Positions 25,914 to 51,881 of a stretch of 64,000 nt of DNA are shown here, piece by piece (position 1 is the first letter of the stretch; each line of letters begins with the position of its first letter). The notes under the pieces were generated by a model that did not search any database, was not told the origin of the DNA, and was given only the letters and a program-made list of their open reading frames with translations. The translations under genes and the position numbers were made by a program. Source of the DNA: Vicingus serpentipes (GTDB lineage Bacteria > Bacteroidota > Bacteroidia > Flavobacteriales_E > Vicingaceae); NCBI GenBank assembly GCA_024103385.1, contig JAGFIT010000048.1, forward strand, positions 1 to 64,000, read 5' to 3'.

Positions 25914-26007
25914 CTTATAAATAACCGTATATTTAAACGTTTATTATGCGATTAATCTACGAATAACTATTTCAACTCCTTTAAGGATAAATCTTGCCGT
26001 AATTCTG

Positions 26008-26015
26008 TATATTTG
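26008..26015 (+). promoter_or_regulatory. -7 promoter element of the NACHT insert
   Basis: TATATTTG, followed by G, with a TTG 11 bases upstream (25994-25996). The same TTG-N11-TATATTTGG arrangement precedes the insert at 50512. The predicted transcript starts just before the palindrome at 26028. Confidence 0.6.
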
Positions 26016-26027
26016 GAATGTATAATG

Positions 26028-26057
26028 CGAATAAAGTACACTAGTGCACTTTATTCG
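26028..26057. repeat. 30-bp palindrome at the head of the NACHT insert
   Basis: Arms CGAATAAAGT (26028-26037) and ACTTTATTCG (26048-26057) are perfect. The centre ACACTAGTGC has one unpaired position (A26038/C26047). It is a close relative of the palindrome at 50550-50577. There is no T-run, so it is not a terminator. Confidence 0.85.
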
Positions 26058-26058
26058 G

Positions 26059-26069
26059 TTGTTGGCAGC
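26059..26069 (+). repeat. 5' member of the inverted repeat that brackets the NACHT gene
   Basis: TTGTTGGCAGC here is the exact reverse complement of GCTGCCAACAA at 28070-28080. It lies 2 bases after the palindrome and 12 bases before ATG 26082. Confidence 0.8.
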
Positions 26070-26081
26070 AAGCAGAATATT

Positions 26082-28061
26082 ATGGAAATAGATACAGTTA
26101 AAAATATAGCAACAATTGCAGCACCGCTTACTAAAGTTGTTTTTGATACATTCTTAAAGCCTAAGCTTGACGAAATTAAAAAGTCTTGGAAAAGAGATAA
26201 GAATATTATTGATCATGCATTTGAGGATAAGTTCTTGGAATATTTGAATGAGACCTATGAAAAAAATGCAATCCTAAACACTGTCGCATTCAAAAGGAGA
26301 AAAATTCTTTTAGATGAAGTATATATTCCCTTAACAATACAATATCGAGATAAAAATGATAAACGAGAAAGTATACTAATTGACCAGTATAGTGACAGTA
26401 TATTCAAAGAATCCAACAAAATATTAATTACCGACACCGCAGGCATGGGTAAGTCAACTATGTCGAAAAAATTACTCTTGTCGTGTATTGATAATAATGA
26501 AGGCGTTCCAATGCTTATAGAACTCAGGCGACTCTCAAAAACTAAAGACGTCATTCAAGAAATTTTAGAACAGCTCAATCCAATAAATGAAGAAATTGAC
26601 AAACAGTTTGTACTTGACTTGATTAAAAGAGGTGATTTTATTTTCTTCTTTGACGGATTTGACGAAATATCAATTACAGACAGAGCACACGTAACAACTG
26701 AAATTCAGAAATTTATTTCAAAAGCTCGTAAGAATAAATTTGTTTTAACATCACGCCCAGAGGAAGCCTTGTCTTCATTTGGCGACTTTTTCAAATACCA
26801 AATAAAACCATTAGTTCCGGATGAAGCTTATGAATTAATAAAACGTTATGATGTATCTAAAAAAATTGCTTCACTATTAATTTCCAAAATTCAAGAGAAA
26901 GATAATTTTTCGAACATTAAAGAATATTTAACAACCCCATTATTAGTGTCGCTTTTGTTTACCGCATTTGAACATAAACAAAGCATCCCTTTTAAAAAAC
27001 ATATTTTCTATAGACAAGTATTTGATGCCTTATTTGAATCTCATGACCTATCCAAAGGAGATTCCTTTGAAAGAGAAAAACATTCAAAACTAGGTTCTGA
27101 TGAATTTCATCGTGTTTTAAGAGCATTCGGATATTTCTGCTTGAAGCAAGAGAACAAAATAGAGTTCACAAGAGATGAACTTGGCTTAATTGTTCAAGAG
27201 TCACTAGACTACGTTGGTGAAAACAATGTAAAATCTTCGGACTTTATAAAAGACCTGTTAATTACAGTTCCAATTTTTTCAAAAGACGGAATGTATTACA
27301 AATGGTCCCACAAATCCCTTCAAGAATATTTTGCTGCACAATTCATATTTATTGATTCAAAAGAAATTCAAAAAGACATATTAAAACATATTGCCTTTCA
27401 TGAAAATAATATGTCTTACATCAATGTTTTAGACCTTTATCGAAGTATGGATCCTTTAGGTTTTGAAGGTGTAATTACACTTTCATTGCTAAATAAATTC
27501 TTAGAATACCTTGATAATAGTTACAAAAACTTTGACGGTGCAGAAAAATTAATAAGACAGGAACTAACTTTTGGATATGACATATATCTTATAAGAATTC
27601 GATTTGATTTGAAGCCAAAGGAAAATCATCCTTCCGAAGTATTTAGGATACTTAAAAACAGGTTTAAAATAAAATACCCAAGAATGTCAATTGGTATTAA
27701 TGTGACTAAAAATGAAGACGATATTTCTTGTATAAAAATCCCTGAAATAAAGAAACCTGAACAAAACCTAATTGAGTATCATAGCAACTTAGTTTGTGAT
27801 TTTATAAAACAAATTGACATTGCCTCAGTTTCTGAAAAAGTTGATTTACAATTAGCTAAAAGAAAACCCTATCATGTCACAGATAGAAATAACTCAATAT
27901 TAAACAGAGAAGCCAATTTTTCGAAGGTGAATGATTTAATCAAGATTCATCTCCGCAAACGATCATTCTTAACAATAGATAAAGACGAAGCTTTAGAACA
28001 GATCAGTAAAATTAGTAGTAGAATAAAAAAATCAAATAACAACAGCTTATTGAATTTTTAA
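26082..28061 (+). CDS. NACHT-domain NTPase, probable anti-phage defence protein
   Basis: About 659 residues from ATG 26082; the in-frame TTG at 26013 lies inside the promoter and is rejected. A short helical N-terminus (about 90 residues) leads to a NACHT module: Walker A DTAGMGKST (about residue 122), Walker B FIFFFDGFDEIS, and the LTTPLLVSLLF and WSHKSLQEYFAAQFI segments typical of NACHT winged-helix regions. No nuclease, TIR or protease effector is recognisable. The 200-residue C-terminus could be a short sensor domain, as in compact bacterial NACHT (bNACHT) proteins shown to block phage. The gene is alone in an insert with defined ends between convergent neighbours, which fits an acquired defence gene. 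Function is inferred from family and context. Confidence 0.85.
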   Translation: MEIDTVKNIATIAAPLTKVVFDTFLKPKLDEIKKSWKRDKNIIDHAFEDKFLEYLNETYEKNAILNTVAFKRRKILLDEVYIPLTIQYRDKNDKRESILIDQYSDSIFKESNKILITDTAGMGKSTMSKKLLLSCIDNNEGVPMLIELRRLSKTKDVIQEILEQLNPINEEIDKQFVLDLIKRGDFIFFFDGFDEISITDRAHVTTEIQKFISKARKNKFVLTSRPEEALSSFGDFFKYQIKPLVPDEAYELIKRYDVSKKIASLLISKIQEKDNFSNIKEYLTTPLLVSLLFTAFEHKQSIPFKKHIFYRQVFDALFESHDLSKGDSFEREKHSKLGSDEFHRVLRAFGYFCLKQENKIEFTRDELGLIVQESLDYVGENNVKSSDFIKDLLITVPIFSKDGMYYKWSHKSLQEYFAAQFIFIDSKEIQKDILKHIAFHENNMSYINVLDLYRSMDPLGFEGVITLSLLNKFLEYLDNSYKNFDGAEKLIRQELTFGYDIYLIRIRFDLKPKENHPSEVFRILKNRFKIKYPRMSIGINVTKNEDDISCIKIPEIKKPEQNLIEYHSNLVCDFIKQIDIASVSEKVDLQLAKRKPYHVTDRNNSILNREANFSKVNDLIKIHLRKRSFLTIDKDEALEQISKISSRIKKSNNNSLLNF

Positions 28062-28394
28062 AAAAGCCAGCTGCCAACAAAACCTATACGTAATGCGGGT
28101 TTTAGTGCTAAATTGAAAGCAAGTGAATATAAACAAACATATGGGTAGGCGGACAGTGAAGTGCCTTGAAATCCCGCACTACGCATAGCCGAGACGTCCA
28201 AAACAAATTCCCTACCAAATTATCATCCCTACTTCGACTCTCCTCTACAGATACTCCATAGATACTTCACCTCAAAGCCATGTATAGTTCACCTTAGTTC
28301 ATGAGGAATTCACCTCAATTAACCAAAAACCACTATTTTTCATCAGAAACACAACAAAATGCTACGATTATGCGTTATTAAAATAGAAATACCT
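28062..28394. other. 3' tail of the NACHT insert, otherwise non-coding
   Basis: No gene is seen. It holds the 3' inverted repeat arm (28070-28080). A tail hairpin follows in which 28084-28099 (CTATACGTAATGCGGG) and 28173-28188 are inverted copies matching at 14 of 16 positions. Further along are three short TTCACCT direct repeats (about 28266-28318). The insert probably ends near 28195, after which the sequence runs to the convergent helicase stop at 28395. Confidence 0.6.
28070..28080 (-). repeat. 3' member of the inverted repeat that brackets the NACHT gene
   Basis: GCTGCCAACAA, exact complement of 26059-26069, starting 9 bases after the NACHT stop codon. It runs into the AACAA...TATA...TGC tail also found after the second insert. 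Confidence 0.8.
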
Positions 28395-49312: not shown

Positions 49313-49773
49313 AAAAAGTATTATTTGTTTGCTTAGGAAACATTTGTCGTTCCGCAATGGCTGAAGGGATTTTAAAACACAAAATTGAAACAGCAGGTAT
49401 AACTATGAAAGTGGATTCTGCTGGAACTTCTAATTACCACATTGGTGAAGCTCCTGATAAAAGAATGCAAGCAAAAGCCATTGAGCACGGAATAAACATT
49501 TCCGACCAACGAGGAAGACAATTTAAAGTAGGAGATTTTGATGTATTTGATTACATTTTTGCTATGGACAATTCTAATTACCAAAACATAATGCACTTGG
49601 CTAGAAATGAAAATGACATAAATAAAGTACATCTATTCTTAAATTATGATTACCCCAGCCAAAATTTAGATGTTCCTGATCCTTACTATGGAGGAGCACA
49701 AGGTTTTGAAGATGTGTACCAATTACTAAACTCCGCTTGTGACACTTTTTTAACTACACTCAACAATGAATAA
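49309..49773 (+). CDS. Low-molecular-weight protein-tyrosine phosphatase
   Basis: 154 residues. The P-loop VCLGNICRSAMAEGIL (C-X5-R-S) is near the N-terminus, VDSAGTSNYHIGE follows, and the general acid is in VPDPYYGG. It is cytosolic, and such enzymes often regulate exopolysaccharide kinases. Its ATG overlaps the small membrane gene by 4 bases, and its end overlaps the RsmI-like gene by 8 bases. Confidence 0.93.
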   Translation: MKKVLFVCLGNICRSAMAEGILKHKIETAGITMKVDSAGTSNYHIGEAPDKRMQAKAIEHGINISDQRGRQFKVGDFDVFDYIFAMDNSNYQNIMHLARNENDINKVHLFLNYDYPSQNLDVPDPYYGGAQGFEDVYQLLNSACDTFLTTLNNE

Positions 49774-50473
49774 ACAAGGCACTTTATACCTAATTCCTGT
49801 CACATTGGGAGATACCCCCATCAACCAAGTCATTCCTGAATTTAACAGCTCTATCATCAATGAAATAGGCACTTACATTGTAGAAAATATTAAAACAGCC
49901 AGACGTTTTCTGAAAAAATCAGGCCTTACCAAACCCTTAGATGAAATCACTTTTTTTGAAATTAACAAACGTACTCCAGAACACGACTACCCTACTTTCA
50001 TTAAACCACTTTTAGAAGGAAAAAATATAGGTGTTTTATCTGATGCGGGGTGTCCTGGTGTTGCAGACCCCGGAGCTAACATTGTTGCCTTAGCACATCA
50101 ACAAAACATCAAAGTAGTTCCTTTAGTAGGACCCTCCTCTATTCTGTTAGCTTTAATGGCTAGTGGTTTTAACGGACAAAGCTTTTGTTTTAATGGCTAT
50201 CTACCCAAAGAACAAAAAGATCGTGTTTATAAATTAAAAGAATTAGAAAAACGAGCGAAAAACCTCCAACAAACTCAATTGTTTATTGAAACTCCTTATC
50301 GGAACACTCATGTTTTGGAAGACATTTTAAAAAATTGCCACCCCACTACCCAACTCTGTATAGCTGTTGATATTACCCTACCCTCCGAGAAAATTCATAC
50401 CAAAACCATTGCCGAATGGCAAAAAGCCAAGATTGATTTAAATAAAAAACCTTGTATTTTTTTGATGGGGTAA
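49766..50473 (+). CDS. RsmI-like SAM-dependent methyltransferase (tetrapyrrole methylase fold)
   Basis: 235 residues. It has LYLIPVTLGD, NIGVLSDAGCPGVADPGANIVALAHQ, VPLVGPSSILLALMASGFNGQ, FNGYLPKE and FIETPYRNTHVLEDIL, all shared with RsmI, the 16S rRNA C1402 ribose 2'-O-methyltransferase. The N-terminus and a shortened C-terminus differ from classical RsmI, and Bacteroidota often encode this form as an extra paralogue, so the symbol is not assigned. It is the last gene before the second insert. Confidence 0.82.
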   Translation: MNKQGTLYLIPVTLGDTPINQVIPEFNSSIINEIGTYIVENIKTARRFLKKSGLTKPLDEITFFEINKRTPEHDYPTFIKPLLEGKNIGVLSDAGCPGVADPGANIVALAHQQNIKVVPLVGPSSILLALMASGFNGQSFCFNGYLPKEQKDRVYKLKELEKRAKNLQQTQLFIETPYRNTHVLEDILKNCHPTTQLCIAVDITLPSEKIHTKTIAEWQKAKIDLNKKPCIFLMG

Positions 50474-50511: not shown

Positions 50512-50519
50512 TATATTTG
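50512..50519 (+). promoter_or_regulatory. -7 promoter element of the second insert
   Basis: TATATTTG, followed by G, with a TTG 11 bases upstream (50498-50500). The layout equals that of the NACHT insert at 26008. Confidence 0.6.
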
Positions 50520-50549
50520 GTAAAAAACAACTAAATCAAAGATATAGTA

Positions 50550-50577
50550 CGAATAAGTACACTGGTGTACTTATTCG
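50550..50577. repeat. 28-bp perfect palindrome at the head of the second insert
   Basis: CGAATAAGTACAC (50550-50562) and GTGTACTTATTCG (50565-50577) with a TG centre. It differs from the 26028 palindrome mainly by the loss of one A:T pair in each arm and in the centre. No T-run follows. Confidence 0.88.
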
Positions 50578-50581
50578 GTCA

Positions 50582-50590
50582 TTAGCCACC
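50582..50590 (+). repeat. 5' member of the inverted repeat that brackets the second insert gene
   Basis: TTAGCCACC is the exact complement of GGTGGCTAA at 51594-51602. It starts 4 bases after the palindrome and ends 4 bases before the ATG at 50595. Confidence 0.75.
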
Positions 50591-50594
50591 ATAG

Positions 50595-51590
50595 ATGAAA
50601 ACTTTATCACTTTTAATAACACTAAGTTCATTTTGCAACCTGTTTTCGCAGAATAACATTAACCATGACTCACTGATTAACTTTTCTGAGAACGTAGCCT
50701 TTATTCATTTTACAGATAAATTGATTACAAAAGAATATACAAATAGAAATAAAGAAACTATTTTAGATACGGTTTATTCTTGCAATTACAACGCCAATAA
50801 AAAGATTGAATCAGAACGATTTTACAAATATGACAGCAGAGTAGACCTAATAAGATATTATACATACGACACACTTAATCGTGAGGTTTTCCAGACCGAG
50901 TTTTATGCCCCGTATTATGATAGCTTAAATGTGACTAAAATTGGATATTCTCAATCTTATTACAACCTATTTGACAGTTTATCTCATACGGAAAATTATG
51001 GAGGAAGTAGAATTAGAAATCCGCCTTTAATCGAAGAAAAAGACGGTTATGTTTCTCATAGTTTTTCTACTGGATACTCTTCAAACTGGGAATGGTGCAA
51101 ACAGAGTATCTGGCGCAAACATTATGACACTTCAAAAAGATTAATACAAGTAAACAATCTAACAAGTGAAGCTGACAAACTTCCTTGTGGTGGAATAAAT
51201 GTTTTAGATTGCTCTACGAGTTATAAATATGACACACTCAATAGAAAGATCCGAGAATCCTTTATCGAGTACTCTATGAATGGATCTTGTCATCATTCAA
51301 ATGAATTCGAATACAACTACGAATTATTTTATCATTATGATTCTAATATGGTAATAATTACTAATTCCTCTCCTTATTGGAATCCATTTTCTCAAAAAAT
51401 TATTTACTACGACAATCAAGGAAAAATCAAAAAAGAAGATGTAATAACTGTTAGTGACTATTCAGATACAGATAATTCGAAGGTTACAACAGAATATTTT
51501 TATGATAAATTCAGCAGATTATTGAAAAAGATAGAACAACGCAATGATTCACAGAATAAAACGATTTATCGCTACTATTACAATAAATAG
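50595..51590 (+). CDS. Exported YD/RHS-like repeat protein of unknown function
   Basis: 331 residues with a signal peptide (MKTLSLLITLSSFCNLFSQ). The mature part is rich in Tyr, Asp and Asn and has repeated YYxYDTLNRxV-like strands (YTYDTLNREVFQTEF, YKYDTLNRKIRESF, YYDNQGKIKKEDV, YFYDKFSRLLKKIE), the pattern of YD/RHS repeats that form a beta shell. It is too short to be a toxin-delivering RHS protein. It is the only gene of an insert with the same end structures as the NACHT insert. Role unknown. Confidence 0.72.
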   Translation: MKTLSLLITLSSFCNLFSQNNINHDSLINFSENVAFIHFTDKLITKEYTNRNKETILDTVYSCNYNANKKIESERFYKYDSRVDLIRYYTYDTLNREVFQTEFYAPYYDSLNVTKIGYSQSYYNLFDSLSHTENYGGSRIRNPPLIEEKDGYVSHSFSTGYSSNWEWCKQSIWRKHYDTSKRLIQVNNLTSEADKLPCGGINVLDCSTSYKYDTLNRKIRESFIEYSMNGSCHHSNEFEYNYELFYHYDSNMVIITNSSPYWNPFSQKIIYYDNQGKIKKEDVITVSDYSDTDNSKVTTEYFYDKFSRLLKKIEQRNDSQNKTIYRYYYNK

Positions 51591-51593
51591 AAC

Positions 51594-51602
51594 GGTGGCT
51601 AA
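51594..51602 (-). repeat. 3' member of the inverted repeat that brackets the second insert gene
   Basis: GGTGGCTAA starts 3 bases after the stop codon and is complementary to 50582-50590. It runs directly into the AACAA tail. Confidence 0.75.
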
Positions 51603-51704
51603 CAATTTGTATATTGCATTTTGCTTGCAAGCAGCTTAGTTATTTGAAACTTTTACAGTTTACGCCATAATTTTTGCTAGTGTTAAAAAAAGCCCACTAT
51701 TATA

Positions 51705-51812
51705 CACCCACCTTAATCCTCCCTCAAGGGAGGAATATTCTCCCTTTGAGGGGTTTGATATTAAGAGGAAAATCTACATAAGTAGATTTGGTTTTTTTAA
51801 GAGAGGGGTGTT
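51705..51812. repeat. Dispersed C/G-rich inverted repeat with terminator-like end
   Basis: TCAAGGGAG (51724-51732) faces CTCCCTTTGA (51740-51749) inside a longer imperfect palindrome beginning CCTTAAT and ending ATTAAG. Next is AAATCTAC-ATAA-GTAGATTT followed by a T-run, which could terminate transcription. A shorter relative lies at 44396. Confidence 0.6.
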
Positions 51813-51881
51813 TACTCACAAAATCATTACTTTTAAGCATTGTGAACAAACTAAAAGCATATTACATAAGCAACATCACAC

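Follow-up and report, generated by a model that had tools for sequence, protein, structure and literature searches.

An integron-type gene cassette in a stand-alone attI platform of Vicingus serpentipes, very probably part of a Flavobacteriales integron system

In class 1, Vibrio and other chromosomal integrons, each cassette gene lies between complementary R' and R'' core arms. The attC sites of known integrons have an L''/L' stem, conserved AAC and GTT triplets, and a bottom strand that folds better than the top strand; a promoter lies upstream of attI, crossover is presumed to occur at G^TT, and the cargo includes toxin-antitoxin and defence-like genes. The system described here is alike in all of these respects. 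The integron integrase IntI (TIGR02249; VchIntI4, structure 2a3v) is a tyrosine recombinase whose gene adjoins attI and the cassettes, as is the recombinase described below. In known integrons, attI is recognised by its sequence (PMC4792948). Integron surveys demand the IntI-specific domain (PMC9668308), and IntegronFinder 2.0 reported one complete integron in the Bacteroidetes, in Salinibacter ruber (PMC9024848). Clusters of attC sites without an integrase are known as CALIN. XerA and archaeal Xer recombinases act on dif-like chromosome sites.

The window analysed here is a stretch of 64,000 nucleotides from the Vicingus serpentipes contig JAGFIT010000048.1. It contains two inserts, named here for their cargo the YD insert and the NACHT insert. 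The YD insert is very likely an integron-type gene cassette. The attI platform that holds it stands alone and very likely belongs to an integron system of the Flavobacteriales; both identifications are inferred from sequence alone. The palindrome and promoter very probably belong to the docking site (attI), with the cassette consisting only of arm, gene, arm and attC. The order of the YD unit (50512–51870) is -7 box, hairpin attI, R' arm, one gene, R'' arm and attC, with the following features:

50512–50519, + strand: presumed cassette promoter Pc, -7 box TATATTTG (Bacteroidota consensus TAnnTTTG)
50550–50577, + strand: attI hairpin, a perfect 28-bp palindrome with 13-nt arms and a 2-nt loop
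50578–50583, + strand: attI recombination core, GTCATT, mutated (GTTGTT in nearly all other copies)
50582–50590, + strand: left end of the cassette, R' arm TTAGCCACC, with its exact complement at 51594–51602
50595–51590, + strand: cargo gene, 331 aa (ATG at 50595, stop at 51588–51590)
51594–51603, + strand: attC R'' arm GGTGGCTAAC, complementary to the R' arm
51606–51622, + strand: attC L'' arm, placed by aligning it to the long attC sites of sister genome G017
ca. 51701–51811, no strand: repeat of ca. 110 bp within the attC, inverted ends ACACCC...GGGTGT, boundaries approximate
51853–51869, + strand: attC L' arm AAAAGCATATTACATAA; the R' core beyond L' is lost

The sequence-only reading of this stretch had described the perfect palindrome and the complementary arms on either side of the gene, and both held. 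It had placed the end of the insert at 51650, which failed, as the attC reaches ca. 51869, some 220 bp further. The hairpin has a single-stranded DNA folding z of -4.7. The R' and R'' arms of this copy match exactly (TTAGCCACC and GGTGGCTAA), and TTAGCCACC is found exactly twice in the 64-kb window, once per strand, on either side of the YD gene. The tail reads AACAATTTGTATATTGC; no other copy of this exact pattern was found in the same genome, because attC sequences differ. Rfam gave no match anywhere in the window. A tRNA-targeted element was considered and rejected, as the window has no tRNA.

The description of the cargo as a YD-repeat exported protein held in part. There is an N-terminal signal-like stretch, and YD-like repeats (YDTLNR, YDKFSR and YDTSKR) can be seen by eye, but the protein reached no Pfam or NCBIfam model and belongs to no known family. 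No relatives of it were found in 45 other genomes of its order or in plasmids.

The second insert repeats this layout – box, palindrome, arms, gene and tail are all present, as had been claimed – in the order TATATTTG (26008), palindrome, GTTGTTGGCAGC, gene, GCTGCCAAC (28070) and tail:

25926–25961, + strand: operator-like 36-bp element preceding the NACHT platform; integrase loci have it too, between the integrase and a divergent Zn-ribbon gene
26008–26015, + strand: -7 box TATATTTG
26028–26057, + strand: attI hairpin
26061–26069, + strand: R' arm GTTGGCAGC, with its complement at 28070–28078
26082–28061, + strand: cargo gene (Pfam NACHT 4.5e-10, SNaCT5 1.9e-16)
28070–28190, + strand: attC (R'' 28070–28078, L'' 28083–28099, L' 28173–28190)

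The NACHT cargo is a NACHT-domain protein with a short NACHT-associated C-terminal domain, and is unrelated to the YD protein (BLASTP E=1.7), as the sequence-only reading had said. The pattern CGAATAA-N(6-16)-TTATTCG occurs twice in the window, exactly at the two inserts, where 0.01 occurrences are expected.

Over 119 nt, the tail of the NACHT insert shares 85% identity with a spacer in a cassette array on plasmid pPP2 of Persicobacter psychrovividus. In the array this spacer stands between one small gene and the next, and its parts are, in order, R'' (GCACAAC), L'' (GGCTATACG...), L' (CGCATAGCC) and R' (GTTGTGC), an arrangement that by its sequence is very probably that of an integron attC. 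Spacers resembling attC were seen in the 8 kb of pPP2 that the analysis covered. The region 355000–400000 of the plasmid (NZ_AP025294.1) has ca. 40 small genes in one orientation, resembles a cassette array and is not annotated as an integron. The bottom strand of the NACHT attC forms an unbroken stem of ca. 16 bp, and the top strand does not fold in this way. No match to the NACHT attC was found in phage records, nor to the NACHT 5' module in plasmids.

In sister genomes, a 382-aa tyrosine recombinase is followed, 10–25 nt past its stop codon, by the same palindrome and GTTGTT, and then by a cassette. A further 73 integrase loci were taken from named genomes, isolates included, and 55 of these could be tested for the palindrome. 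It was found (score >= 6.5) no more than 70 nt from the stop in 43 of the 55, compared to 8 of 220 random windows. Of 29 integrase loci, 22 have an exact downstream complement of the first cassette's R' 9-mer, where 0.98 are expected. The palindrome and GTTGTT are therefore the attI. Integrase, attI and cassettes very likely form an integron layout in the sister genomes, as judged from the sequences, with everything in the same direction; compared to class 1 integrons this order is inverted, which counts against the integron reading. The system is also present in cultured Flavobacteriales, including Aquimarina, Maribacter, Zobellia, Brumimicrobium and Tenacibaculum.

Thirty-five attI sites, picked solely by their outer seven bases and core, were used to examine covariation. 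Although the sequence varies, 153 of the 175 inner pairs are complementary, relative to a mean of 81 and a maximum of 102 in shuffles. What is conserved in the attI arms is pairing rather than sequence. The palindrome and core are at a fixed position before the cassette in all 35. The R'/R'' rule holds at 15 of 28 attI sites (0.18 expected), and about half of the sites have no exact partner inside 4.5 kb. The sequence of these arms varies from copy to copy, with matches only within a copy.

The box TAnnTTTG is found within 60 nt before attI at 19 of the 35 sites (1.5 expected), mostly 20–27 nt upstream. At integrase-linked sites it falls on the final codons of the integrase gene, whose end would therefore contain Pc. 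Many solitary attI sites retain the box without an integrase gene. That it acts as a promoter is inferred and has not been shown. At five loci (L179, L182, L185, L030 and L034) the palindrome CCCGATAGCTATCGGGAG stands directly before attI in place of the usual TAAACACATAATG; it is degenerate in L030 and L034 and looks like a genome-wide repeat.

The attC sites of the group also covary. In an alignment of 14 sites, stem covariation was 0.523 (0.134 when shuffled), with 66 double-change cells (24 when shuffled). Only clear attC sites were taken, which overstates regularity. At two stem positions a mismatch is nearly universal (14 of 14 and 12 of 14 sites). The fixed one is A.C in the top strand and so a T.G pair in the bottom strand. 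This is the asymmetry that a site used as a folded bottom strand would display. The test of attC membership, an imperfect L''/L' stem with bottom-strand asymmetry, is met by the NACHT attC and by the alignment. An attC model (R1) found attC-like sites in 10 of 14 genomes of the genus. In the window's genome it found five, on five contigs. Three attC-like sites of this genome (on C4, C83 and C76) have no attI palindrome nearby. Two loci in genome G026 (L225 and L226) have attC-like arrays, and a search of that genome for the A1-type integrase found nothing; another integrase could possibly serve them.

The attC of the YD insert has both L'' and L', but it is interrupted and its R' is lost. Tail positions 213–275 match the G017 tail in the attC alignment, and the ca. 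110-bp repeat is missing from the homologous attC sites. With its inverted ends, this repeat may be MITE-like. Because the core has changed from GTTGTT to GTCATT and the attC is split by the ca. 110-bp insert, the YD copy is probably fixed. With no such recombinase in the genome either, it is likely a relic that is no longer mobile.

The recombinase of the sister genomes, of the A1 family, scores best against the XerA-type model NF040815 (232.6 bits, cut-off 220) and falls below the cut-off for the integron integrase model TIGR02249 (194 bits, cut-off 265). Its catalytic domain can be aligned to VchIntI4 2a3v (E 2.9e-35), but unlike IntI it has a gap in place of 2a3v residues 199–244, which are taken to be the IntI-specific additional domain. 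This segment is absent from every member of recombinase alignments of 9 and 31 sequences, and the usual integron search would therefore miss such loci. The closest solved structures by sequence are the XerA and archaeal Xer recombinases 4a8e and 5hxy; the new gene differs from these in having attI, cassettes and a Zn-ribbon gene as its neighbours.

The recombinase also differs from IntI in an extra N-terminal region of ca. 105 aa. The first ca. 80 aa are confidently predicted to fold as beta-beta-alpha-beta-beta-alpha-beta (pLDDT 90.6). The predicted domain compares at a middling level with archaeal XPB N-terminal domains (VIA-align Z 5.8–6.2) and more weakly with SMARCAL1 HARP 4o66 (Z 4.1); it has no Foldseek hit with E <= 0.001 and no Pfam match. 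A HARP/XPB-like N-terminus, first suggested by eye and weakly supported by the comparison of predicted folds, is a possibility and a lead only.

Upstream of nearly every integrase examined there is a divergent gene for a Zn-ribbon protein of 119–124 aa (CxxC...CxxYC; loci L032, L037, L039–L041, L046, L063, L070, L073 and L078). Between the two genes is the 36-bp element, with CGTTTA-type repeats, that is also found at 25926–25961 in the window. The gene and the element may be a regulator and operator of the system. Viral contigs had nothing beyond two distant recombinases.

No A1-type integrase was found in the window's genome, a metagenome-assembled genome that is 97% complete, and recombination there cannot be argued from that genome alone. 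Stand-alone platforms are numerous in it. The right half of attI, used as a search pattern, gave 11 hits, compared to 2 for a control pattern, and six hits outside the window (L179, L180, L182, L183, L184 and L185) have the palindrome. With the window's two, there are at least eight attI platforms with differing cargo, including the NACHT protein, an AAA ATPase, HipA halves and a HATPase-like protein. The sequence-only reading had taken conserved ends with different cargo to indicate a cassette or mobile element and not gene-specific regulation. The cassette reading held – at least six more 5' modules with other cargo were found in the genome – though the integron type had not been recognised. 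Four platforms have a common upstream module of ca. 230 bp (75–83% identity), which points to platform duplication. The AAA ATPase in the cassette at L182:2203–4293 matches the PADLOC candidate defence family PDC-S06 (E 6e-269).

Solitary platforms are also found alongside the enzyme. G017 has two intact integrases and, besides them, seven or more solitary attI sites whose cores are intact; one of its platforms has a ParE-like toxin as cargo. The idea that a solitary platform is an integrase locus after a simple internal deletion is weakened, as the 36-bp element of the NACHT platform is in the opposite orientation relative to integrase loci and no integrase remnant was found near the solitary loci tested.

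The strongest evidence for cassette turnover, which is likely though inferred by comparing sequences, is different cargo in a shared platform. The YD locus follows a gene of the TP-methylase (tetrapyrrole methylase) family (49766–50473 in the window). G017 has the same 5' module with the same attI in this place, and an attC of the same long type, but a 461-aa BNR-repeat protein replaces the YD protein. No attI was found behind the TP-methylase-family gene in the eleven other genomes of the genus in which that gene was found. At the NACHT locus, G023 and G017 have other cassettes, and several other genomes have none. The boundaries of these empty sites cannot be read precisely, as the sister species have diverged (66–77% identity in a neighbouring protein). 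The different cargo at one locus is indirect support for cassette excision and insertion; no circle was observed.

Compared to known integrons, the system has its cassettes singly or in very short arrays, dispersed over many platforms; its attI is a perfect hairpin of variable sequence, and some of its attC sites are very long (ca. 230–270 nt). Of the criteria for a complete integron, the IntI-specific domain is not met by the recombinase, and an integrase beside attI and cassettes is met in the sister genomes and isolates but not in the window's genome. CALIN likewise have attC cassettes with no integrase nearby, but here most cassettes are single and each has its own attI and promoter. The CALIN criterion of at least two nearby attC sites without an integrase is not met, as the window's cassettes are 24 kb apart and the five model hits are on five contigs. 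What is new is likely to be the enzyme, the hairpin attI and the spread over many stand-alone platforms; the cassette itself is of integron type.

In the proposed mechanism, a platform would consist of a promoter (TAnnTTTG), a hairpin of 26–32 bp and the core GTTGTT, and a cassette of an R' arm, one or a few genes, an R'' arm and an attC hairpin. The enzyme would be a XerA-like tyrosine recombinase whose gene lies elsewhere or was once present; it would join the attC of a circular cassette, as a folded bottom strand, to the attI core at G^TT, and insertion would put the gene just behind the platform promoter. The anatomy, the copy number, the linkage of attI to the recombinase, the structure and strand asymmetry of attC, and the differing cargo at one and the same locus are shown by the sequences. 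Recombination chemistry at G^TT, the circle, action in trans, and promoter activity or expression are inferred from sequence alone, and no circle, joint or activity was observed.

A bolder reading makes three claims jointly, and as a whole it is held to be slightly more doubtful than credible. The first is that the Bacteroidota have a distinct integron lineage whose cassettes are moved by a XerA-like recombinase that lacks the IntI domain, with an N-terminal HARP/XPB-like domain perhaps reading DNA structure. The second is that attI too would be recognised as a hairpin, by shape and not by sequence. The third is that a single integrase would serve numerous dispersed attI platforms, each providing a place from which one cassette is expressed. 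The genome would then be a scattered integron instead of one array.

The alternative that survives best, and remains possible, is that complete integrons were inserted long ago and lost their integrase, so that the two inserts are dead remnants and there is no dispersed-platform organisation. The damaged core and attC of the YD copy and the lack of an A1 integrase in the window's genome favour this, as do solitary modules that start ca. 30 bp before the expected integrase stop, for example right after mfd in L184. Against it, tblastn found no integrase remnant near either window insert or any of 27 loci with solitary sites, the solitary sites of G017 have intact cores in a genome with intact integrases, cargo at one locus differs between species, and four platforms have the upstream module in common.

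Three other explanations are very unlikely. In one, an integrase put cassettes into genomic sites other than attI (attG), and the palindrome is an unrelated neighbour. Integron integrases are known to target such sites (PMC12901181), and the attC-like sites on C4, C83 and C76 have no attI palindrome nearby. However, the same palindrome and core stand directly after integrase genes and at a fixed position before cassettes, and the attG criterion, no attI at the point of insertion, is not met, as hairpin and core lie directly upstream of the cassette. In another, the inserts are transposons or MITEs with the short arms as terminal inverted repeats, as short inverted arms around one gene and dispersed copies with different cargo could suggest; target-site duplications were not examined and there is no close empty site. 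But the arms differ among copies and match within a copy, as the R'/R'' rule of integrons has it and transposon ends do not, and the tail is a folded, covarying attC. Finally, a regulatory 5'-UTR hairpin of a regulon, with the arms as pairing mRNA ends, would fit a hairpin just behind the promoter box (and so in the mRNA leader) and the 36-bp operator-like element upstream of some sites, but the hairpin is also found behind integrase stops, attC sites follow, and the genes downstream are not related to each other and at one locus change from species to species – though a leader role besides the attI role is not excluded.

The integron-type reading is the preferred one. No paper describing the system was found in the CC-licensed literature searched; most subscription journals and preprints were outside this scope. 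The gene-capture system is likely one of marine Flavobacteriales that was previously unrecognised. If this is true, cassette capture would be more widespread than has been counted, and the IntI domain would not be needed for it. The dispersed platforms would then be a mechanism for the turnover of single genes, defence-like genes included, at fixed chromosomal sites.
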